64,000 bases of DNA, from NCBI GenBank assembly GCA_026874595.1, contig CM049307.1:28497079-28561078 (forward strand), written 5' to 3'. The stretch is from Sipunculus nudus (taxonomy: Eukaryota; Annelida; Sipuncula; Golfingiida; Sipunculidae). The notes under the pieces were generated by a model. That model ran no database searches. It had not been told where the DNA came from and was given only the letters and a program-made list of their open reading frames with translations. Below, one piece after another: positions 8,971 to 59,070 of this stretch. Each line of letters begins with the position of its first letter. The first letter of the stretch is position 1. Made by a program: the position numbers and the translations under genes.

Positions 8971-9795
8971 TGTTACAGGTGCTCTTTTTATTGTGTGACA
9001 CGGGCGTAACTCGTGTTGAGGCGCCCTCGCCGGGCCGCATGTTACATTCTATGTTTAATCTGTACTGGTTGAACTCTCGTTTTCATGCTAGCTTGGGGCG
9101 TTCTCGCCTGGCCGAGGTCACGTATGGACCCTGGTATGTGGAGATGTTCTTCTAGATGGTTCCTGTAACGCGTGTTACTGTGTATTATGTTAGAGCCTTA
9201 GACTGTTCGAGAAGTGGAAAATTCTCGACTTTGGGCAAGAAGTTATTAATAGGGGCCTGTGTTTTAAGCCGAGAGTGAGGAGAGCAGATTCCTGCGGACA
9301 CAGACGTGTTTATGTCAGTTTGTGGGACCTGTCCGATTATCCAGTAATTTCAGGGATTCTACTATTACTAACTATTATATTACTATTATACAATTTAATG
9401 CTTCCTGCTTCAAGTTCTCTTTCTGGATTGTTACAAGAACTTTACATTGGCTTGTTATTCTCCGAGAGGATTGGTGTGGATTTTTCATCCGGCATAGACA
9501 TTTTAATGAACTTATCGTTGTGACTGTGGTGGTATCAAGGTACTGTGCTCATTTTTTATTTTACTGTGTGATTGTATTGATTTGTTATTATACCGCTGTT
9601 TTACTGTATAATTGTATTGATTTAGTGTATTGTAATGTTAGGTTTGTTTTAAGAATAAATTATAGTTATTTGTTAACAAAAAACCACTGACTTCTTTATT
9701 CATTCCCCTAGACATTTCACGCTGCCTAGTGTTACAGAATCTGATTTTTTTTATCTCCAGGCATACGTGATCTGCTTATATTAGGTTCCGTAACA
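8971..9795 (+). mobile_element. Solo LTR, copy 1
   Basis: Starts TGTTACAGGTGCTC and ends TTCCGTAACA, with 4 bp direct repeats ATAC at 8967-8970 and 9796-9799. It is the reverse complement of the elements at 23190 and 44962 over its length. An AATAAA at about 9654 in this orientation supports + as the sense strand. The short ORFs within it show no retroelement protein similarity. TG...CA ends and a 4 bp duplication fit an LTR retrotransposon, but the clade cannot be named without internal sequence. Confidence 0.85.
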
Positions 9796-9929: not shown

Positions 9930-10810
9930 TTTGTTTTGACCTCTGACCTTTCCTCTCTCCAGTGCGTCCATCTGTGCGTCTGTTTTGACACATTAACCCA
10001 CATATCTCCCGTTTGACCGATCCGGAAAAAAAATTTGCACAGATGTAGCCCTTGGATAGCTTTATAACATACATAAAAATGGTGGCGCCACCTGCAACCA
10101 TTTTTGCACAGCGTCCGTCTGTTCATCTGCCCTGGGATAAAATCACTCATATATCTGCATTGGTTGGACTTATACACCTGAAATTTTGTATGTGTATACA
10201 TCCTGGACAGCTTTCTTGATTTTATGACAGGTGGCGCTACCTTCATTCCCGTTTACGCTGCACACATCCAAGCTCATATCTCGGGAACCGTTTGGCCGAT
10301 TGGACCAAAATTTGTATGAGTATAGATCTCACATAGCTCTTTATCAAATGCAAAACTGGTGGCTACAACTACCACCATTTTTGCACAACGTCCCTCTGTT
10401 TGTCTGCCGTTGGATAAAATCACTCATATCTCTGCACTGGTGTGACTTATCTGCATAAAATTTTGCAGGTTTATACATCTTGGATAGCTTTCTTGATTTT
10501 ATGACAGGTGGCGCCACCTACATTCACATTTACGCTGCAGGCATCCAAGCTCATATCTCGGGAATCGTTTGGCCGATTGGGCCAAAATGTTGCATGTGTA
10601 TAGATCTTACATAGCTCTTTATCATACGCAAAACGCGCCACCTGCAACCATTTTTGCACAGCGTCCGTCTGTTTGTCTGCCGTGGGATAAAATCACTCAT
10701 ATCTCGGCAGTGGTTGATTTTTTGCATTTGTATACAACTTTGAAAGCTTTCTGGATTTTGTGGTAGGTAGCACAACCTACATACACATTTCGGCTGCAGA
10801 CATCCATGCT
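9930..10810 (+). repeat. Tandem repeat, about three units of 275 bp
   Basis: AAATCACTCATATCT recurs near 10140, 10417 and 10689, TTTTTGCACAGCGTCCGTCTG near 10101, 10380 and 10650, and CTCATATCTCGGGAACCGTTTGGCCGATT-type words near 10272 and 10551. Each unit contains two diverged halves of about 140 bp and a GGTGGCGCCACC palindrome. ORFs on both strands fall on the repeat period and do not resemble proteins I know. Confidence 0.85.
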
Positions 10811-19309: not shown

Positions 19310-22300
19310 ATGACCAAAGTGGGGCTCAAGTACAGTGTGGACCAGCTTTTGAGATTGAGGTCACCTGCACTTAGGGTAAACACTGACCACTCGCCATTAT
19401 CAGAATTATGGAATACTCTGAAAAGCTTTGGTATTCATAAACACACTCTCAGAGGAACCAGGGCAGGTCAGTATCATGCAAGACCAATTCCACCCATTAT
19501 CACCCCAAGGACTGTTACTTTTCCTGGTAAACAAATAACCCAATGTTGGGACAATCTTGTCAGTGTACCCCGAGCGGTAAATACCACCCAGTCTACGGTG
19601 TCTAAGATCAGCGCATCGGCTGTTAACAGAAGTAAGAACATACATATATGTCTCCTAAATCTCTGGTCAGTCTGTAATTAAAAAAACAGCAATAAATGAT
19701 TTCATTGTTGACCTGGGAATAGATATTCTGGCCCTTACTGAAACCTGGCTCAAGGGTGACACTCGTGACGATGTGATCCTTCATGACATGACCCCTCCCG
19801 GATATAAAGTATTACAACAAGCCAGAAAGGCTAGAGGTGGTGGCATAGCAATTGTATGTCATGAGAATATTGATGTCAAACGTGTGCCTATCAACAGCAG
19901 AGGCCAGTTTTCATCTTTTGAGGTCTTAGTTTTTGATATTTCAATGAAACAATCAACCAGAGTATTTGTGGTGTATAGGCCTCCTCCATCTGGAAAGAAT
20001 GCTCTTACTTATAATCTCTTTCTAACCGAATTTGCTGATTTCCTTGAACAGCATATCACGTCGTGTTCTAAACAAATTGCGATCCTCGGTGATTTTAATA
20101 TCCATGTAAAAAATGATGACAGAAATGCACGGGAATTCCGTAGTTTGATTGAGCGCTTCGGTCTCGTACAGCATGTATGTCAGAGCACACATCGTAGTGG
20201 CCACACACTTGATCTCGTCCTCTCACGATCAAATGATAACTTGGTCAGCAATGTGGAGTCTCAGGACCACGGATTTCCAGATCATTATCCTGTTTTTTCT
20301 ACTTTGTGCTTACAGAGACTGTTAAAGCCAAAAAAATCTATCTCGTATAGAAAGCTAAAAGCTTTGAATGTGACAGATCTAGCCAGTGACATACAGAGAT
20401 CTGTGCTGTCTACTGATTTCAGTGCCTACTCTCTGAATGATCTTGTCTCTCTCTACAACACAGAACTGTCTACCCTGCTTGATGCCCATGCCCCTGTGAA
20501 AACGCGAGTTATTGCCATACGAAAAGATGCAGAATGGTATACAGATGAGGTCAGGGCTGCAAAGCAATTACGTAGACAGTTGGAACGGTTGTGGAGGATA
20601 ACCGGACTTGCAGTCCATCGTGACATGTTCATTCAGAGATCGAAGGTCAATCGCCAAATTAAACTGTCAAAGACTAGTTACTATAGTAAAAAGATTGCAG
20701 AGTGTCAAGACAACTCGAAGGAGTTGTTCAGAGTGGTAAACACCTTGCTGGGTAAGGATAAGACGGTACCTCTTCCAAGGAAGCCAGTTACTGACCTAGT
20801 TGAAGTTTTCAGTTCCTTCGTTGTCTCCAAGATACAGGATATCAGGGAGTCCATTCGAGCAGACATTTCTTACTCTGGACCTACATTTTCGAGCACTCGC
20901 GTACTTACTCCCATGAGGAATTTGGCTCCTGCCACCGTGGACGAAATCGGGCGTATTATCTCAGCATCTGCCTCCAAGCAATGCGACCTTGACCCCCTAC
21001 CGACCACACTGCTGAAGGCATGTTCCAAGGAATTAACTCCTGTCATTACACACATGGTTAACCTGTCACTTTCAACTGGTGTATTTCCACAGAACTACAA
21101 AACCGCTCTCTTCACTCCGCTTATTAAGAAATCTACATTTGATCCTGAAGTTTTAAAAAACTTTACACCTGTCTCTAATTTGGCGTTTGTTTCCAAAGTA
21201 ATGGAGAAGGTCGTGTGTTCACGACTCCACAAACATCTTGTAGATAATAATTTAGAGGAGCCATATCAATCAGCTTATCGGGCTGGACACTCCACAGAGA
21301 CTGCTACTTTGAGAGTACATAATGACATCCAGTGTGCTCTTGGAGAGATTAATTGTGTACTTCTAGTCATGATTGACTTGTCAGCTGCCTTTGATACGGT
21401 CAATCATGAGATCTTGCTTTGATACACTTCGGTCAATGGGAGTTACTGGCACTGCCCTAGAATGGTTTGCATCATATCTTTGTAAACGTAGCCAGTCAGT
21501 CCAAATTGAAGGGATTAAGTCTAAGTTACAAATATTGGACTGTGGTGTGCCCCAGGGCTCTGTCTTAGGACCTGTCCTCTTTACTCTTTACACTGCTCCC
21601 TTAGGTACTTTACTTCATGAGCGTGGATTTTATAATATGTATGCTGATGATTCTACTTTGTATTTGATTTTCAGGCCTGAGCACCTCAGCAATAACATCA
21701 CATATATGGAGGCTACTGCTGGTTTAGTACGTAAGTGGATGGCCAACAACAGCTTGAAAATGAATGATGATAAAACAGAGGTGATGCTGATTACACCTAA
21801 ACATTTGGCAACAAAGATTAAATGTCCAAATCTTCTAATCGTCGAACATTAAGTTCAACCATCTCAGTGGATTCGAAGCCTTGATGTTTATTTTGATTCT
21901 CATTCCACCATGGAGCAGCATGTGAACACCATATGCCGTGTGGCCTACATGCATCTCCACAACACCTATAAAATAAAAGCGTATTTGGATCAACGCTCTC
22001 TTGAGCGCCTGATCCACGCTTTTGTCACCACCAAGTTAGATTATGGAAATGCTTTACTTCTTGGGTATCCGGCTTCATTAATACAGAGGCTTCAGCGAGT
22101 TCAAAACAGCGCAGCCCGTATACTAAGTGGATGTGACAAGTATGACCATATTACACCTGTATTGCGGGAGCTGCACTGGCTCCCTGTAAGTCAGCGTATT
22201 AAATTTAAGGGGGCCATACTACTTTTCAAGACCAAACATCGCATGACCCCGGTCTACTTACAGGATATAATTCATTCGTACACACCATTTAGATGCCTCA

Positions 22301-22500
22301 GATCGGCCGATCATGACTTACTTTTTGTTCCACATACAAAGTCTTCCATGGTTGCTCAATGAGCATTTTGTGTGGCAGGTCCCACTTTGTGGAATTCATT
22401 TCCTTTAGAATTAAGAAAAGCTGAGAGCCTAACTGCTTTTAAAAAAAAATGCTTAAGACATACTTATTTGTGCAATAGTTCGATTAGCTGTGATTTTGCA
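19310..22500 (+). pseudogene. LINE endonuclease/reverse transcriptase ORF, frameshifted
   Basis: Order of parts: a leader (SVDQLLRLRSPA to LLNLWSV), an apurinic-type endonuclease with ALTETWLKG, ARGGGIAIV, VYRPPPS, ILGDFN and PDHYPVFS motifs, then reverse transcriptase with LIKKSTFDPEVLKNFTPVSNL, SAYRAGHSTETA, DLSAAFDTVNHEILL, CGVPQGSVLGPVLFTLY and the catalytic MYADDSTL, then the C-terminal HWLPVSQRIKFK domain and GPTLWNSFP. Single-base shifts break the frame near 19670, at about 21418 (an extra T after EILL) and near 21860; an in-frame TGA at 22360 truncates the tail. Longest intact segment: 19773-21422. The key endonuclease and YADD residues survive, so decay is fairly recent, but this copy cannot make the full protein. 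Confidence 0.9.
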
Positions 22501-23189: not shown

Positions 23190-23991
23190 TGTTACGGAAC
23201 TAACAAAAACAGATCACGTATGCGTGATGAACACAAATTTTGTAATGGAGATAAAAAAAAAACAAATCAGATCCTGCAACACTAGGCAGCGTGAAATGTC
23301 TAGGGGAATGAATAAAGAAGTCAGTGTTTTTTTTTTGTTAACAAATAACTATAATTCATTCTTAAAACAACCCTAACAATACAATACACTAAATCAATAC
23401 AATTATACAGTAAAACAGCGTTATAGTAACAAGTCAATATAATCACACAGAAAGATAATGGTACAGTACCTCGATACCAACACCATCACAACGATAAGTC
23501 CTTTAAATGTAAACTCTCTCGGAGAATAACAGCCAAGTGGAACGTTCTTGCAACAACACAGAAAGTAAACTGAAGTCCAAATGTACAAAATCCAGGAGAA
23601 AGTTCTTGAAAATCTATAATAGCCGCATTCGTCGGATAAGGTCTTGACACACGCTTCTGTGTCCGCTGGTATCTGCTCTGCTCTGCCGTCTGCCCACTGG
23701 TTCTAAAAAAACAGCCCCTTTATATACCTTCACACCCCAAGCCGGGAATTTTCCACTTCTCGAACAGTCTATAAGGACCCTACTCAACAGTAAATACGCG
23801 TTTCAGGAATTCTCTAGAAAGACATAGCCGTGTGTCTCTACACATACCAGGCTCATCACCTGACCCACGACCAGGCGTGAAAACCCTAGGCTCACATGAC
23901 AACGAGAGTTCAACCAGCACGGATTAAACATAAAATGTAACAACAACACGAGTTACGCCCGTGTCACACAATAAAAAGAGCACCTGTAACA
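23190..23991 (-). mobile_element. Solo LTR, copy 2
   Basis: Starts TGTTACGGAAC and ends GCACCTGTAACA, flanked by CTGT (23186-23189 and 23992-23995). On the minus strand it has a TATATAAAGG box near 23717-23727, which suggests minus-strand sense. It lies 57 bp beyond the right end of the LINE-interrupted MITE, so at least three independent insertions are stacked here. Confidence 0.87.
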
Positions 23992-30689: not shown

Positions 30690-31620
30690 CGTCTTTTATT
30701 TCTGGCCGGAAATCTTCGATTTTGACAAGCATGTTGGTCAGTTGCCTATGTCTGTTTGTGGGTGTGTTTGTCGGTATGTGTGTTTGTTTGTCAGTACTCT
30801 CCTGGCAACAATTTTTGAGCAATCGATCTGAAACTTACAGGGCTGATGTAGTTGTTGGTCATCAAAGGTCAAAGTCAACGTTATCGAAAAACGTCTAAAT
30901 GTTATTGTCATCATAACATTGTCAATATTGGTCCAATCTTCACAAACTTATAGGCTCATTTTCTTCCTTTACGTCTTCTTCATAACATGGTCTAGTTATT
31001 TTTCTCAACTTTATGTCACTTTGTCAGTATGTCTGTCTTTCTGTCATTTGTCCTCAATTTCGCCTTCTTGATGGTTCTTGTGTCTTACATATAGCATTCT
31101 ACAGGCCACAGTTTTGCAGGAATCCTTTATAAACTGGTGAATCTTATGTCATAAACTAATATCTTAAAAGAGATTTTTTTTTTCATTTTTGGGACATGGC
31201 CGCTAGGGGGCGCTGCACTCGAACCTCAAAAACTTATATATTTGCTATATCTCCGAAACTATAAACCGGAATTACATAAACTATAGCTTATTTTCTTCCT
31301 CTGGGTCTTCTCCGTGACTCGGTCAAGTCATCTAATCTCAACCTTGTGTCACTTTGTCAGCATGTCTGTTAGTCTGTCAGTTGTTCTTCATTTCTTTTGC
31401 TTGCTGGTACATCTTATGTCTTACACTAATATCTCAAAGGTGCATGATGTTTCATTTTCGGGATATGGCTGCTAGGGTGCACTGCACTCGAAACAATACA
31501 ACATATCATTTTTGGGCCATATTTTCGAAACTATACACCTTAATTACATAAACTATTCTTTCTTCCTCTGGGTCTTCTTCATTACTTGGTATAGTCTTCT
31601 GGTCTCAGCTTTGTGTCACC
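30690..31620 (+). repeat. Tandem repeat, three or so diverged units of about 280 bp
   Basis: TTTTCTTCCTCTGGGTCTTC recurs (30960, 31290, 31562 regions), followed each time by TCTCAACTTTATGTCACTTTGTCAG-like sequence, a CTGTC run, TTACACTAATATCTCAAAG and a GCTAGGGGGCGCTGCACTCG or related word. A variant leader with AAAGGTCAAAGTCAACG lies at about 30862. No coding character. Confidence 0.8.
31198..31217 (+). promoter_or_regulatory. CTCF-like motif inside a tandem repeat
   Basis: GGCCGCTAGGGGGCGCTGCA is close to the bilaterian CTCF core (CCGCNAGGGGGCGC). A decayed sister word, GGCTGCTAGGGTGCACTGCA, lies in the next unit near 31466. Confidence 0.4.
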
Positions 31621-41191: not shown

Positions 41192-41195
<4 letters not shown>

Positions 41196-41541
41196 ACAGG
41201 ACAAACGATCCTACTAGTACAAAGTCCGATCGGACTTTCTACTAGGAGAAACTCCGATCAGACTTTCTACTAGTATGATCGGCGATTCCACTAGGAAAAA
41301 CTCCGGTAATAGCCTCTACTAGGACAAACTCCGATCAACCAGAGACCACAACATAATTAGACTTTTTACTAGTAAAATCGGTGATTCAACTAGGACAAAA
41401 CCCGGTCGTAGTCTCTACTAGGACAAACTCCAATCATATATAAATGTACTAGTTCGATCAGAGCTTCTACTAGGACAAACTTACCATTATGGTCTAATTT
41501 CTGAAACCTGAGATTATGAATAAAATAAACACAGTAATATG
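41192..41541 (+). repeat. Left TIR of the Ginger/GIN-like element
   Basis: The arm consists of about ten alternately oriented copies of the word CTAGGACAAACTCCGATC (variants with CTACTAGTA and GATCGGCGATTC), followed by a unique inner part ending in AATAAACACAGTAAT. It is longer than the right arm because it carries extra subunits. It begins directly after an (AT)n(GT)n tract at 41126-41191. Confidence 0.85.
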
Positions 41542-41989
41542 GTAACCAAATGTTTTTTTATGATTATACACATTATGACTTTCTAAAAGACTAGAGTATA
41601 TCATGATTGTTTTATACAATATACAGGACAACCGTTGTTTATTTGGTTTTTAATGTCGGGTTAAACACTGGTATATGGTAATGGTTGACATGTTAGTTTT
41701 TTTGTAATACCATTATATTTATTCATTGTTTTATGTACTTTTCTTCTAGAATTCTTGTTATTACGCTTTATTGTATATGATTGCTCCTTAGGCCTATAGT
41801 GTAAAGGGGTAATTAAAGATCGGTCATCTGTATGTACTGGTATAAAGTAAGTTTGTGTATAAAGTTAGAAAATTAAAACTAATGATAGAAATATTAATAA
41901 ATATAAAAAATAGAGTATCTAGAATTCAAGGTGTATGAGACAGCTAGGCATCAACCTATCAATGGTCAATATGGTCAGCTAGGCCTTCA

Positions 41990-42535
41990 TTGTTTTGAGA
42001 TCTAAGGACTTAAGTTTGTACAGGTATGTTCAATGAACCAAGCTAGGCAGAGTATACAATCAGTTTGATTTTAAGATATCTTAGGACTTGAGTTTGTACA
42101 GGTATGTTCAGTGAACCTTGCCAGGCAGAGTAAACAATCAGTTAGGCCTTTGTTTGTTGGAGATCTAAGGACTTGAGTTTGTACAGGTATGTTCAATGAA
42201 CCAAGCCAAGCAGAGTATACAATCAGTTTGATTTTAAGAGATCTTAGGACTTGAGTTTGTACAGGTATGTTCAGTGAACCTTGCCAGGCAGATTAAACAA
42301 TCAGTTAGGCCTTTGTTTGTTGGAGATCTAAGGATATGAGTTTGTACAGGTATGTTCACTGAACCAAGCTGGGCAGAGTAAAAACAATCAGTTAGGCCTT
42401 TGTTGGTTGGAGATCTAAGGACTTGAGTTTGTACAGGTATGTTCAGTGAACCTCGCCAGGCAAAGTATACAATCAGTTAGGTCTTTGTAGGTTGGAGATC
42501 TAAGGACCTGATTTTGTACAGGTAAGTTCCATCAA
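41990..42535 (+). repeat. Seven-copy tandem repeat in the 5' part of the Ginger/GIN-like element
   Basis: Direct repeats with the core GAGTTTGTACAGGTATGTTC recur at about 42014, 42092, 42177, 42255, 42340, 42427 and 42512. Spacings of 78, 85, 78, 85, 87 and 85 bp show two alternating unit types, one with TTTGATTTTAAGATAT and one with GGCCTTTGTTTGTTGGAGAT. The alternation suggests duplication of a two-unit block. The array sits between the left TIR and the broken integrase gene, where a promoter or leader would be expected. Confidence 0.88.
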
Positions 42536-42611
42536 GACAAAAATTACCTGTGTATATATAGGCTTGTATATTTTGCCAATAGCATCAGTTCAATTTATGA
42601 TATCAGAAGCC

Positions 42612-43714
42612 ATGGATGATCAAGAGACAGATTTCTACAGAATACTTGAAGACCACTTATAACAGATGAAAGAAAACTGCAGAGCTGCCTTCACCATCAA
42701 CCAGGACACATATGACCAAGTAGTTTCTGTTGTTCAACTGAATAAAGGAGAAAAGTGTGTTAATGGAAACCAATTCAAGTTTTGGGCCAACAACGCTTCA
42801 GACTGCAACAGATTAGTGCCAAAGAGGAGCTGTTCCAGACTATAAGAAGGCGCCATGAAACTGTTGATCATGCTAGACGGGACAAGATATGGCATGAGAT
42901 TCGAAGCAACTACTCATGGGTTCGTCATGAGGCAGTGCAATTGTTTCTGAGCACCTGTCCTGCATGTTCTGTCCGCAAGGCCGCGTGTTCAAGCTCATGC
43001 ATGGTGGATGTGTAGTTGCGATAGGCACAGAGGTTTGTGACAGACTCACAGTGCATGGATCAACAGTGAATCCTTAGAGCCAAGGTGTGTTTCAGGTGAC
43101 CAGTGTGTTAAGCTAGGGTTTCATTCCTTTGGTTGGTAACCCCTTTCAGGAAGAACTAGATGAAGGACAGTTTGTTATATGGGAACTGGAGAGTATCTCA
43201 GAAGAGGAAATCAAAAGATACCCCCCACAGCAAAATTGTTAAAGTTACAACAGAAAACTACCTGAAAGCTGCAAGCAGACAGAAGCTTAACTATGAGGCA
43301 AAGAAAGTGGAAAAGGAGTATAGTGAAGGTGACACTGTTGGTGTTAGAATTCATCAAGTTGATCGTACAAATACAGACCCCCCTTGCATTCTCCAATGCA
43401 AAGTTCTTGCTGTGAAAACGGAAAAGTTAACCAGACTGTACAAGGTTTATACAGTGAACGGCATTCTGCGTAATTATTTCTCCAGTGAGGAGATTGTAGA
43501 TATGAGAAGCGTGTGCTTCCCTGGATTGCAGAAAGCTGATGTAACAACAATGGATGAAGTATCTCTAATCCAAGCATCCCGTGTGAACTCAAACTGGGAG
43601 GCTAAAGCTACAAAGGGTACCACCGTGTGCAAGTGCAAAGGTAGCTGTGTGACAAAGAGATGTAAATGTAGACAGGCAGGCTGGAAATGCTCCACAGGAC
43701 TGATATTTTTATGA
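42612..43714 (+). pseudogene. KRBA2-like/GIN integrase remnant lacking the catalytic core
   Basis: Broken reading frame in three parts. An N-terminal piece starts at the ATG at 42612 and is interrupted by an in-frame stop in DHL-stop-QMKENC; it continues through QFKFWA. A frameshift near 42785 leads into an integrase-type zinc finger: EELFQTIRRRHETVDHARRD, then RHEAVQLFLSTCPACSVRK, giving an HH-CC set. The piece ends at 43015. The DDE catalytic core expected next is absent: only about 140 bp separate it from the C-terminal part (43160-43714). That part has GDTVGVRIHQVDRTNTDP, a YKVYTVNGILRNYF segment and a cysteine-rich tail, CKCKGSCVTKRCKCR. Comparable tails end KRBA2-like proteins. The tail breaks before the expected final Cys-His. 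It cannot code for an active transposase. Confidence 0.78.
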
Positions 43715-43729
43715 TGGACTTGCACTTTA

Positions 43730-44450
43730 CCGAGGGAACTGTATTTCTGCGAGTGAGTCTTTTGAAAAAGTTCTGTTTGAAAATACACACAATCTGTATG
43801 TGGCTTATTAATTGATAAACATAAGTACTGTCAGATGTATATGTTGCATTTTTCTCTTTTATTTTAAGAAACAAGTTATACCTATGTTCAGGAATTGTAG
43901 ATAACAGTTTGTGCTAATATGTGCTTGTGCTTTTATTTGTATTTTTATCACATAAACTTGTATGTTCTGTTTGAAACCTACATTCTATCAGTGGCTTTTT
44001 CATTGATTAGCATAAGTACTGTTGGATGTATATTTTCGCTGTGATTTTAGAACAGGATGTGAATGAAATATTTTAGATCTGTCCTTAAATCAAGGAATTT
44101 TACATATATACAAGTAGATAAACAGTTTGTGCTTATATGCGCTTGTGCTTTTATTTGTATTTTTTAGAATATGAACTTGTATGAATTGTACTTAACCAAG
44201 CGATGTGTATTTCTGAGAATCAAAGTTCTATTTGAAAATACCTACATTCTGTATCAGTGGTTTAGTTGATAAACATAAGTACAGGTTGATATTTATATTG
44301 CATTGTTTTTTGCTGTGAATTTAAGACAGGATGAGAATGAAATATTTTATATCAATATTCAGGAATTTTACATATAAACAAGTAAATAACCAGTTTGTGC
44401 TTACATGTGCTTCTGCTTATATTTGTATTTTTCTTTATAAAATAAAATTG
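43730..44450 (+). repeat. Three diverged tandem units of about 220-260 bp downstream of the integrase remnant
   Basis: The word CAGTTTGTGCTTATATGTGC followed by TTTTATTTGTATTTTT recurs near 43907, 44128 and 44391, each preceded by GATAAACATAAGTACTG and a GTTTGAAAATACCTACATTC-like word. The copies differ by small indels. They occupy the space between the coding remnant and the right TIR and belong to the transposon's 3' non-coding region. Confidence 0.75.
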
Positions 44451-44495
44451 TATGAAGATGTTTGAATGAAAAATTTAGAATTATATCTGTGACTT

Positions 44496-44553
<58 letters not shown>

Positions 44554-44556
<3 letters not shown>

Positions 44557-44566
44557 AAATATCCTA

Positions 44567-44608
<42 letters not shown>

Positions 44609-44621
44609 TAGGATATTTTGT
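44554..44621. repeat. Perfect 68 bp AT-rich palindrome
   Basis: ACAAAATATCCTACGAT at 44554-44570 is mirrored by its exact reverse complement ending at 44621, with an (AT)n centre. Another (AT)n tract (44504-44552) adjoins on the left. The structure lies inside the Ginger/GIN-like element and could extrude as a cruciform. Confidence 0.9.
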
Positions 44622-44691
44622 TTTATCATATGTGCTTGTATTTATTTTTCTTTATTTTTTTCAAATGCATAAAAAAAAACATTTGGTTTAA

Positions 44692-44961
44692 ATATTACTG
44701 TGTTTTATTTATTTTTAATCTCAGGATTCAGAAATTAGGTAAATTATGGTAAGTTTCTCCTTGTAGAGACTACAATCGGAGTTTTTCCTAGTAGAGACTA
44801 CGATCAGAGTTTGTCCCAGTAGAGGCTTTGATCGGAGTTTGTCCTAGTAGAATCGCCGATCCTACTAGTAGAAAGTCTGATCGGAGTTTCTCCTAGTAGA
44901 AAGTCCGATCGGACTTTGTCCTAGTAAGATCGACGATTCTACTGGAACGGAGTTTGTCCTG
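44692..44961 (-). repeat. Right TIR of the Ginger/GIN-like element (outer 9 bp displaced to 45726-45734)
   Basis: Reverse-complement counterpart of the left arm: TTACTGTGTTTTATTT, AATCTCAGGATTCAGAAATTAG, then GAGTTTGTCCTAGTAGA-type subunits ending GTTTGTCCTG. The final TGACA of the element is found beyond the solo LTR, preceded by the duplicated CCTG. Confidence 0.85.
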
Positions 44962-45725
44962 TGTTACAGAACCTATTATAATCAGATCACGTATGCGTGA
45001 TGAACACAAATTTTGTAATGGAGATAAAAAAAAAATCAGATTCTGTAACACTAGGCAGCGGGAAATGTCTAGGGGAATGAATAAAGAAGTCAGTGTTTTT
45101 TTGTTAGCAAATAACTATAATTTATTCCTAAAACAACCCTAACAATACAATACACTAAATCAATACAATTATACAGTGAAACAGCGGTATAGCAACAAGT
45201 CAATACAATCACACAGAAAGATAATGGTACGATACCTGGATACCAACAGTGTCACCAAAATAAGTCCTTTGAATGTAAGCTCCCGGAGAATGACATGTCC
45301 AGTGGAAAGTCCTTGCAACAACAAAGAAAGTAAACTAAATAGTCCAAATGTATAAAATCCAGGAAAGTTCTTGAAAAATCTATAATTGCCGCAGTCGTCG
45401 GATAAGGTCCTGACACGCTTCTGCGTCCGCTGGAATCTGCTCTGTTGTATGCCTTCTGGTTCTAAAAAACAGCCCTTTCTTCACACCCTAAGCCGGGAAC
45501 CTTCTACTTCCCGAACAGTCTATAAGGACCCTACTCCACAGTAAACACGCGTTTCATGAATTCTCTATAAAGACATAGCCGTGTGTCTACACATACCAGG
45601 CTCATCACGTGACCCAAGACCAAGCGTGAAAACTCAAGGCCCACATGACAACGAGAGTTCAACCAGTACGGAATGTAACAACAACACGAATTACGCCCGT
45701 GTCACATAAAAGAGCACCTGTAACA
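44962..45725 (-). mobile_element. Solo LTR, copy 3, inserted in the right TIR of the Ginger/GIN-like element
   Basis: Begins TGTTACAGAAC, ends GAGCACCTGTAACA, and is flanked by the 4 bp duplication CCTG (44958-44961 and 45726-45729). It is closely similar to the copies at 8971 and 23190. No internal retroelement sequence is present, so it is a solo LTR left by recombination. Minus-strand sense is inferred from a TATATAAAGG-like box in the sister copy and TTTATT (AATAAA on the minus strand) near 45120. Confidence 0.85.
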
Positions 45726-45801
45726 CCTGTGACATATATATATTTATATATGCCCGTGTCACATAATAGAGCACCTGTAACACCTGTGACATATATATAT
45801 T

Positions 45802-45808
<7 letters not shown>
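45695..45808 (+). repeat. 57 bp tandem duplication spanning LTR end, target duplication and flank
   Basis: GCCCGTGTCACATA starts at 45695 and again at 45752. Each copy runs through GAGCACCTGTAACACCTGTGACATATATA. The unit contains the LTR 3' end, the duplicated CCTG and the outer end of the host transposon, so it arose after the LTR insertion. An (AT)n tract follows to 45838. Confidence 0.85.
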
Positions 45809-56207: not shown

Positions 56208-56551
56208 AGCCACCAAGATACACATGTGGTGTCCTTAGGCCACCAGGGTATACAGAATCATACCTGTGGTGGACGTAGGCCACTAGGTTACACAGCATCA
56301 TACCTAGTGTTTCCCTAGGCCACCATGATATACCAGCATCATACCTGTGTTGTCCTTAGACCACCAGGATATACAGCATTATACATGTGGTGTCCTTAGG
56401 CCACCAGGGTATGTAGCATCATACTTGTGGTGTCTGTAGGCCTCAAGGATACACAGCATTATACATGTGAAGTCCTTGGGGCACCGGGTATACATCATCA
56501 TCCTTGTGGTGTCCTTAGGCCACCAGGGTATACAGAATCATATCTGTGGTG
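56208..56551 (+). repeat. Minisatellite of 40 bp units in MRPS24 intron 2
   Basis: About eight degenerate direct repeats with a period close to 40 bp. The unit core is AGGCCACCAGGGTATACAG followed by a CATCATACCTGTGGTGTCC-like part. Unit starts are near 56238, 56278, 56318, 56358, 56399, 56439, 56479 and 56518. Looser copies of the GGCCACC/GGTGTCC words flank the array at 56140-56205 and 56660-56740, so an older array probably covered most of this intron. Confidence 0.85.
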
Positions 56552-56812
56552 TTTTTGAATAAAATGAGTGTACTAACAACATTTTATAGTCTGAATTCAG
56601 AGTTCTTTCATGGAACTATTAACTATATTGGCAGAAGAAAACAGATCAAGAAGCGTGCACTTCGGGTTGGTGGCCAGAGGCCACTCGGTGTTCCAAGGTC
56701 ACCATGTCTCTTGAGGCCACCCGGTGTCCCAAGGCCACCATTCACGATAGTAATCTGCCTCCTGCAAACTGTATCAAGTAGCATTGTAATGTAAACTTCA
56801 TTTCTGTTACAG

Positions 56813-57480: not shown

Positions 57481-59070
57481 TGTCCCCTGCTCGGCGGATG
57501 CAGGGGACATTAATTTTGGTTTTTCCTGTCTGCCTGTCTGTTTGTCTGTCAGTCCGTCAGGTTTTTCTGTTTCTGTGCGATAACTTTCCTAAAGATTATC
57601 CAATTTCATTCAAATTTGGGTCAGTGATTGCAGCTATGCATACCTTGGTTAGGATTGGTTTTGGAGTGTCTAGCTTCTCTCTGTCTGTCTGTCTGTCACT
57701 TTGTCTGTCTGTCAGATTTTCATTTCAATGCGATAACTTTCCTAAATATTATCCCATTTCATTCAAATTTTGGTCAGTGATTGCTCTCATGCTTACCTTG
57801 GTTGGGATTTGTTTTGTAGTGTGTGGCTTCTCTCTGTCCGTCTGTCACTTTGTCTGTCAATTTTTCGATTTGGTGGGATAACTTTCCTAAATATTATCCG
57901 ATTTCATTCAAATTTTGGTCAGTGATTGCTCTCATGCTTACCTTAGTTGGGATTGGTTTTGGAGTGTATGGCCTCTCTCTGTATGTCACCTTGTCTGTCT
58001 GTCAGTCAGGTTTTGGTTTCCCTGCAATAACATTCCTAAATATTATCCCATTTCATTCAAATTTGGGTCAGTGATTGCTCTCATGCTTACCTTGGTTGGG
58101 ATTTGTTTTGTAGTGTGTGGCTTCTCTCTGTCCGTCTGTCACTTTGTCTGTCAATTTTTCGATTTGGTGGGATAACTTTCCTAAATATTATCCGATTTCA
58201 TTCAAATTTTGGTCAGTGATTGCTCTCATGCTTACCTTAGTTGGGATTGGTTTTGGAGTGTATGGCCTCTCTCTGTATGTCACCTTGTCTGTCTGTCAGT
58301 CAGGTTTTGGTTTCCCTGCAATAACATTCCTAAATATTATCCCATTTCATTCAAATTTGGGTCAGTGATTGCTCTCATGCTTAGCTTGGTTGGGATATGT
58401 TTTGAAGTGTCTGGTTTCTGTCTGTCTGTCAGGTTTTCGTTTCTGAGCAATATCGTTTACAAAATATAATCTGTATCATTTAAATTTTGGTCCATGATTG
58501 CTCTCATGCTTACCTTGGTTTGGATTTGATTTGAAGTGTCTGGCTTATGTCTCTCTGCCTGTCAGTCCTTTTTTCTGGTGGTATAACTTTTGTAAATTTT
58601 ATCTGATTTTATTCAAATTTTGGTCAGTGATTGCTCTCATGCTTAACTTGTTTGGATTTGTTTTGAAGTGTCTGGCTTCTGTCTGTCTGTCACTCTGCCT
58701 GTCAGTCCATCAGGTATACTTTTCCGTGGGATAACTTTCCTAAATAATATCCCATTTCATTCAAATTTGGGTCCGCATTTGCCCTCATGCTTACCATGGA
58801 TTGGGATTGGTTTTGGAGTATCTCACTTCTGTCTGTCTGTCTGTCACTTTGTCTGTCTGTCAGGTTTTCGTTTTCCTTTGATAACTTTCCTAGATATTAT
58901 CCCATTTCATTCAAATTTTCGTCAGTGATTGCTCTTATGCTTACTTGGTTGGGATTTGTTATGAAGTGTCTAGCTTCTTTCTGTCTGTCACTCGCCTGTA
59001 CGTTTATTAACAAGCATGAAAAACAAGAGCCCAAAACGGGGGAACTTAATTTCACAAATTTGCTTGTTTA
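57481..59070 (+). mobile_element. Interspersed element with ten-unit tandem core array (pearl-like), copy B
   Basis: The head is a perfect hairpin, TGTCCCCTGC (57481-57490) with GCAGGGGACA (57500-57509). Ten core units follow, marked by TCAGTGATTGC at 57621, 57774, 57919, 58068, 58213, 58362, 58491, 58624, 58772 and 58922; spacings are 129-153 bp, mostly near 147. Each contains GATAACTTTCCTAAATATTA, CATTTCATTCAAATTT and a CTGTCTGTCTGTC run. The tail AGCATGAAAAACAAGAGC ... CACAAATTTGCTTGTT matches copy A. The many overlapping ORFs simply read the repeat in several frames and are not genes. Confidence 0.8.
57772..58382 (+). repeat. Higher-order duplication (two-unit block) inside the 147 bp array
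   Basis: The block 57772-58088 is repeated, apparently without change, at about 58066-58382, an offset of 294 bp or two core units. Other units in the array are visibly diverged, so this expansion is recent. Confidence 0.85.

Follow-up and report, generated by a model that had tools for sequence, protein, structure and literature searches.

The stretch of DNA analysed here (the window) comprises 64,000 nucleotides of Sipunculus nudus (C2:28497079-28561078 of the 1.43-Gb genome), and relatives of the element described below were sought in the same genome. Positions 41192-45734 are occupied by an element with terminal inverted repeats (TIRs), which we interpret, with a probability of about 0.92, as a non-autonomous and now immobile copy of a cut-and-paste transposon of the Ginger2/TDD type. 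It is an ordinary broken member of its family, not a new kind of element. The DDE core of its integrase-type transposase was lost in one deletion of ~745 bp between short near-repeats, with a further ~71 bp lost at the tail. An insertion resembling a long terminal repeat (LTR) split the right TIR, and a 57-bp tandem duplication followed. An earlier interpretation made from the letters alone (the sequence-only reading) had proposed an internally deleted Ginger/GIN-type transposon that kept both end domains of its integrase.

Once a 764-bp insert at 44962-45725 is set aside, 41192-45734 forms one TIR element with TGTCA ends, of which the outermost 14 bp are the same on both sides (TGTCACAGGACAAA). 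The right end at first appears unlike the left because the 764-bp block sits near the right tip. With the insert set aside, the two arms match in inverted order, 263 of 294 aligned bases being identical, and the alignment scores 361; when the bases of the right arm were put through 200 simple shuffles, the highest score was 74.5. The arms are placed as follows.

41192..41559, + strand: left TIR, beginning TGTCACAGGACAAAC, with 28-bp-type sub-repeats and AGGANAAAC six times (arm alignment, motif counts).
44673..44961, - strand: inner part of the right TIR, as far as the LTR-like insert, with AGGANAAAC five times (arm alignment, motif counts).
45730..45734, - strand: terminal 5 bp (TGACA) of the right TIR, severed by the insert (arm alignment).

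The sequence-only reading had thus correctly seen one element with TGTCA TIRs containing inverted sub-repeats. It had also put the TIRs at 350 bp; they are indeed long, but they measure ~368 bp on the left and 294 bp on the right. The sub-repeats carry the terminal motif AGGANAAAC, always in one orientation relative to the end. This motif occurs once in the remaining window (62,609 positions, both strands), and Markov simulation gave a mean of 0.046 and a maximum of 2 in 2000 sequences. Seventeen other copies of the element hold it five to eight times in their first 400 bp and three to six times in their last 300 bp, which together with the window copy gives 8-14 motifs per element. From its arrangement, the iterated motif looks like a series of transposase binding sites.

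The superfamily was judged from the ends and target sites of other copies. A search of the genome with the TIR yielded 271 first-look candidates, of which 40 were scored; 20 stretches around TIR matches were then fetched, and the resulting counts are lower bounds. The search for copy ends imposed TGT..ACA with three mismatches allowed. Both ends were present in 16 of the fetched stretches and not in the other four (L013, L016, L024 and L028). These 16, together with L035, L036 and C3, make up 19 complete copies, the window copy being left out. TGTCA was found at both ends of all 19 and of the window copy (insert set aside). An exact 4-bp target duplication flanks 14 of the 19; it is preceded by a purine in every one of the 14 and conforms to RTATAY in nine. 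In one copy, L019, a 7-bp direct repeat (TAGGTAT) takes the place of the 4-bp duplication.

Ginger2 elements are described as having TGTNR ends and an RTATAY target, whereas Ginger1 elements target CCGG or CCGT/ACGG (PMC2836005). Judged by these sequence characters, the family appears best filed as Ginger2, because it combines TGTNR ends, RTATAY-type duplications and an HHCC zinc finger. A Ginger1/GIN element would share much of this, since Ginger1 and Ginger2 alike have long TIRs with TGTNR ends and a zinc finger (PMC2836005), and the finger, core and TGTNR ends of the present family are likenesses to Ginger1 as well. It is nevertheless an improbable alternative, as none of the 14 duplications is CCGG or CCGT/ACGG. 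The published Ginger1 families also have a GPY/F motif and mostly OTU or Ulp1 tails, and no Pfam match to OTU or Ulp1 was obtained in 41500-44700 of the window copy; in the relatives, the Pfam scans covered the stretches of finger and core and the cysteine tails. That absence is weak evidence because the window copy is deleted. GIN genes descend from Ginger1 (PMC2836005), and the source elements of these genes have been termed GIN transposons (PMC3424704). The earlier assignment therefore holds as far as a Ginger-type element is concerned (finger, ends, long TIRs) and fails for GIN, the duplications being Ginger2-like. Four other groups, IS481EU, IS3EU, GingerRoot and Polinton, are without the HHCC motif according to PMC10045372.

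The remains of the transposase lie in four blocks, interrupted at two points by deletion.

42612..42811, + strand: N-terminal block, frame 0, with a TAA stop at 42660.
42833..42982, + strand: integrase HHCC (H2C2) zinc finger, frame 2 (PF17921; coordinates from the whole-frame match).
42975..42979, + strand: core-deletion junction, GCAAG (comparison with C3 and C14).
43000..43221, + strand: post-core block, frame 1, with stops at 43075 and 43114.
43241..43711, + strand: C-terminal block, frame 2, open, with a CXC-like cysteine cluster at 43628-43690 and a stop at 43712.
43695..43696, + strand: second deletion point, where relatives are ~71 bp longer (KCHPETFSVCQNRF-type cysteine-rich tail end).

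The frames thus run 0, 2, 1, 2, with internal stops. The longest open frame is 184 amino acids from stop to stop, a length reached by one of 1000 Markov sequences. The presence of an integrase zinc finger, as proposed from the letters, is supported by Pfam Integrase_H2C2 (PF17921), which gives 28.0 bits on one short piece and 30.2 bits on another, of 58 amino acids (cut-off 25.5), and 23.3 bits, under the cut-off, in a scan of the whole frame. The DDE core was rightly reported as missing: six frames of 41500-44700 gave no match to the Pfam core domain rve at E<=1. Because this core is absent, the window copy is a deleted member of its family and not an autonomous one. The tail reaches 22.4 bits against the Pfam model preSET_CXC, under the cut-off of 23.3. 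The complete tails of three relatives gave TCR at 16.0 bits (cut-off 23.5) in one, a weak CSRNP_N match in another and nothing in the third. Since all Pfam CXC matches fall under their cut-offs, the tail is called CXC-like on the strength of its cysteine pattern together with these weak scores.

What was lost can be read from the relatives. A DNA search of the genome with 42600-43720, in which all 14 first-look candidates were scored, gave 18 match rows including the window itself. Two copies, C3 and C14, match both sides of the window point 42975-42983 and have ~740 bp of extra DNA between (747 bp in C3 and 743 bp in C14, by alignment coordinates), the edges of which are GCAAG and GCATG, a near-repeat. 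The extra DNA translates as an integrase DDE core. In C14, a single frame contains H2C2 (33.9 bits) and, directly after it, rve at 34.0 bits (cut-off 32.6). In C3, H2C2 scores 25.8 bits and rve 16.5 bits, which is under the cut-off in a frame broken by stops, and visual inspection of two frames shows the expected core motifs. A third copy, C6, has part of the core (rve 13.4 bits, E 0.093) with motifs readable in translation, and has no match to the zinc-finger stretch. The suggestion that the window element is an internally deleted family member, and that relatives might carry a DDE core between the two coding blocks, is thereby borne out. The same comparison corrects the view that the core should have lain in the ~140 bp after the finger, as this stretch is post-core sequence in the relatives. 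The peptide VHGSTVNP.SQG (43048-43086) was considered as the end of the DDE core and rejected, because the relatives place it after the core; no recognisable core remnant therefore remains.

The tail end with the final cysteines, lost in the window copy, is present in C3, C14, C6, L035 and L036. Family members equipped with HHCC finger, DDE core and CXC-like tail are enclosed by TIRs of the type seen in the window copy. The claim that both end domains were kept consequently stands for the finger and falls for the tail, which lacks its last ~71 bp and those cysteines, while the frames are broken.

When the C14 stretch was used as a protein query, 97 of the 2624 candidates were scored and 100 match rows resulted, including many more distant integrases. 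Among the matches listed, several relatives show 52-55% protein identity over finger and core, some of them free of stops in the matched stretch. One of this group, at C8:56722099-56722644, has an open frame of 293 amino acids with no stops in the match. The relatives at 52-55% identity probably represent sister families.

Deletion of the core is not peculiar to the window copy. When 18 further both-ended copies were mapped on the C3 copy, the core stretch was unmatched in all 18. Several of them share deletion junctions: one junction, including the same odd base, is common to L015, L022, L023 and L027; a similar one is common to L009, L019, L020 and L025; L011 and L021 share another, with L014 close to it; and a further one is common to L035 and L036. 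Three members of the first group have exact duplications of their own (TGTA, CATA and TATA), and the deleted copies therefore moved after the deletion had occurred. They were presumably mobilised by an enzyme from elsewhere.

These findings raise the question of whether the window copy belongs to a non-autonomous lineage that was selected for its zinc finger and tail, for example as a repressor or a DNA-binding co-factor without a core. Both finger and tail are recognisable in it, deleted lineages do amplify in this family, and L035 and L036, which are short copies with common deletions, have a cysteine-rich tail frame that is open over the stretch read. However, finger and tail are not joined by an open frame in the window copy: six stops separate them in their common frame 2 (43013, 43022, 43067, 43097, 43109 and 43157), and the tail is truncated. 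The amplified deletion groups retain the TIRs and subterminal DNA and have no match to the finger stretch. No sibling of the window deletion was found among the 14 scored candidates of the coding-sequence search, a DNA search that may miss diverged copies. The possibility raised in the sequence-only reading, that the end domains mark a lineage in which they were preserved, is thus not upheld, and such a lineage is even less probable here than a Ginger1 element. Decay is favoured. With its core gone, its frames broken and its right end split, the window copy looks dead, and no sign of a function was seen for the finger or tail that it retains.

The interruption of the right TIR, a feature absent from the sequence-only reading, involves two further rearrangements.

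44962..45725, no strand assigned: solo-LTR-like insert of 764 bp, TGTTACAG..CTGTAACA, within the right TIR and foreign to the transposon (CCTG duplicated at 44958-44961 and 45726-45729).
45695..45808, no strand assigned: 57-bp tandem duplication of insert end, TIR end and TA-rich flank (repeat analysis).

The insert divides the right TIR 5 bp from its tip. It recurs twice in the window, at 23190-23991 and 8971-9795, and the copies measure 764-825 bp overall; they are 78.5-90.9% identical to one another. All three have TGTTAC..GTAACA ends and perfect 4-bp duplications, namely CCTG (44962-45725), CTGT (23190-23991) and GTAT (8971-9795). TG..CA ends and a short target duplication are those of a solo LTR, and the insert is labelled solo-LTR-like, since the same ends and duplications would equally suit a small TIR element. 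Two open frames within it gave no Pfam match. The 57-bp duplication is younger than both insertions because its unit contains the insert end, the TIR tip and the flank. The 764-bp block is indeed a separate repeat, but a chance assembly of two TIRs from separate repeats can practically be dismissed, given that the arms match in inverted order over 294 aligned bases and that other copies have this interior enclosed by the same two ends, including C3, where ends and interior occupy 4246 bp.

Several points weigh against the Ginger2/TDD interpretation. The assignment to Ginger2 is based on the ends, the target site and the zinc finger. Five of the 19 complete copies (C3, L009, L019, L027 and L035) have no exact 4-bp duplication, and the duplications of L010, L011, L018 and L036 are situated within TA-rich repeats, in which four matching bases may be due to chance. 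Because a (TG)n tract lies on the left and TATA on the right, the duplication of the window copy itself cannot be read. As for the core, the match in C6 is very weak at the scores given above, and the core-bearing copies C3, C14 and C6 all contain stops or frame breaks; no active source was seen.

If the Ginger2/TDD interpretation is correct, the transposase would bind the TIRs, probably at the iterated AGGANAAAC, and would insert the element at R-TATA-Y with a 4-bp duplication. In other cut-and-paste families, incomplete gap repair after excision yields internal deletions. The deletions in the present family may have arisen in the same way, and an enzyme made elsewhere would then move the deleted copies.

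Compared with known Ginger2/TDD elements, the family shows the same succession of HHCC finger and DDE core (here in C14 and C3), TGTNR ends, long TIRs and 4-bp duplications at R-TATA-Y. One published member, Ginger2-1_LS of the sea snail Littorina saxatilis, is 6081 bp long with TIRs of 180 bp (Bao, Kapitonov and Jurka 2010, PMC2836005), and the table of that paper gives TIRs of 45-297 bp for Ginger2/TDD. The right arm of the window copy falls within this range, whereas the left arm exceeds the published maximum of 297 bp. The window copy also differs in having no core. The less usual features of the element are the iteration of the terminal motif in its arms and the CXC-like cysteine-rich tail after the core, the latter being unmentioned for Ginger2 in the available part of PMC2836005. 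A different comparison is offered by Imagin, which crustaceans carry as a host gene of Ginger1 origin. It is likewise an integrase descendant without catalysis and has lost the whole core in amphipods; Imagin is a conserved host gene, whereas the window element is a decayed transposon copy between TIRs (PMC12863088).

The tail and the TIR structure are worth mention in a description of the family. It is conceivable, if still doubtful, that they mark an undescribed branch of Ginger2 with a CXC-type DNA-binding tail on the transposase and TIRs in which the terminal recognition motif is iterated (8-14 times per element), and that this branch could be a source of KRBA2-like host genes. The tail of the window copy is presumably similar to the cysteine-rich tail of KRBA2. 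KRBA2 is an integrase-derived mammalian gene that appears under 'rve' in a table of PMC3257199. A literature search, mostly at title level, recognised no published Ginger2 with a CXC tail. Should such a CXC-tailed branch exist, it would offer a candidate transposon ancestor, open to testing, for those integrase-derived genes that have cysteine-rich tails. The family as a whole is a clean example of an integrase-type DNA transposon decaying into non-autonomous lineages, in which copies with a core, the junctions of deletions and amplified deleted derivatives occur together in one genome.

Outside this genome, no relatives of the C-terminal block or the zinc finger were found in viral contigs, and the C-terminal block likewise had none among contigs of prokaryote genomes or in phages; the TIR motif had no match in viral contigs. 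One search of PDB sequences gave no matches and the other gave three at E 0.48-1.3, which were regarded as chance. In the window, neither Rfam (at gathering thresholds) nor ARAGORN found anything, and NCBIfam gave nothing.

The gene remnant is flanked by non-coding DNA with repeats of its own.

41975..42529, + strand: tandem array 5' of the gene, units 78-87 bp apart, with a 163-bp higher-order period (Tandem Repeats Finder, TRF; counterparts in the relatives C3 and C6).
43716..44480, + strand: 3' non-coding region with diverged direct repeats at spacings of ~190-270 bp and ~455-470 bp.

The array consists of seven in-register copies at spacings of 78, 85, 78, 85, 87 and 85 bp, and TRF reports 3.3 copies of the 163-bp period over 41975-42529. 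The alternation of 78 and 85 bp noted earlier therefore applies to the first four intervals and breaks down in the later ones (87 and 85 bp). Each of the seven units contains GTACAGGTA (42018-42516), followed by TGT in six and by AGT in the last, which gives it a resemblance to a splice donor; the strongest donor-like form is that of the last unit, directly 5' of the gene. No second copy of the TIR, the array or the gene was found anywhere in the window. The 3' region of the element also contains a perfect AT-rich palindrome of 68 bp (44554-44621).

Elsewhere in the window, a remnant of a non-LTR retrotransposon lies at 19659-22362, with endonuclease and reverse transcriptase in overlapping frames (19659-21422 and 21373-21852); no Pfam match was obtained for the open frame that follows at 21853-22362. 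Tandem arrays are further found at 57542-58999 (149/294-bp units), 56225-56552 (40 bp), 10087-10714 (277 bp) and 31134-31619 (267 bp).

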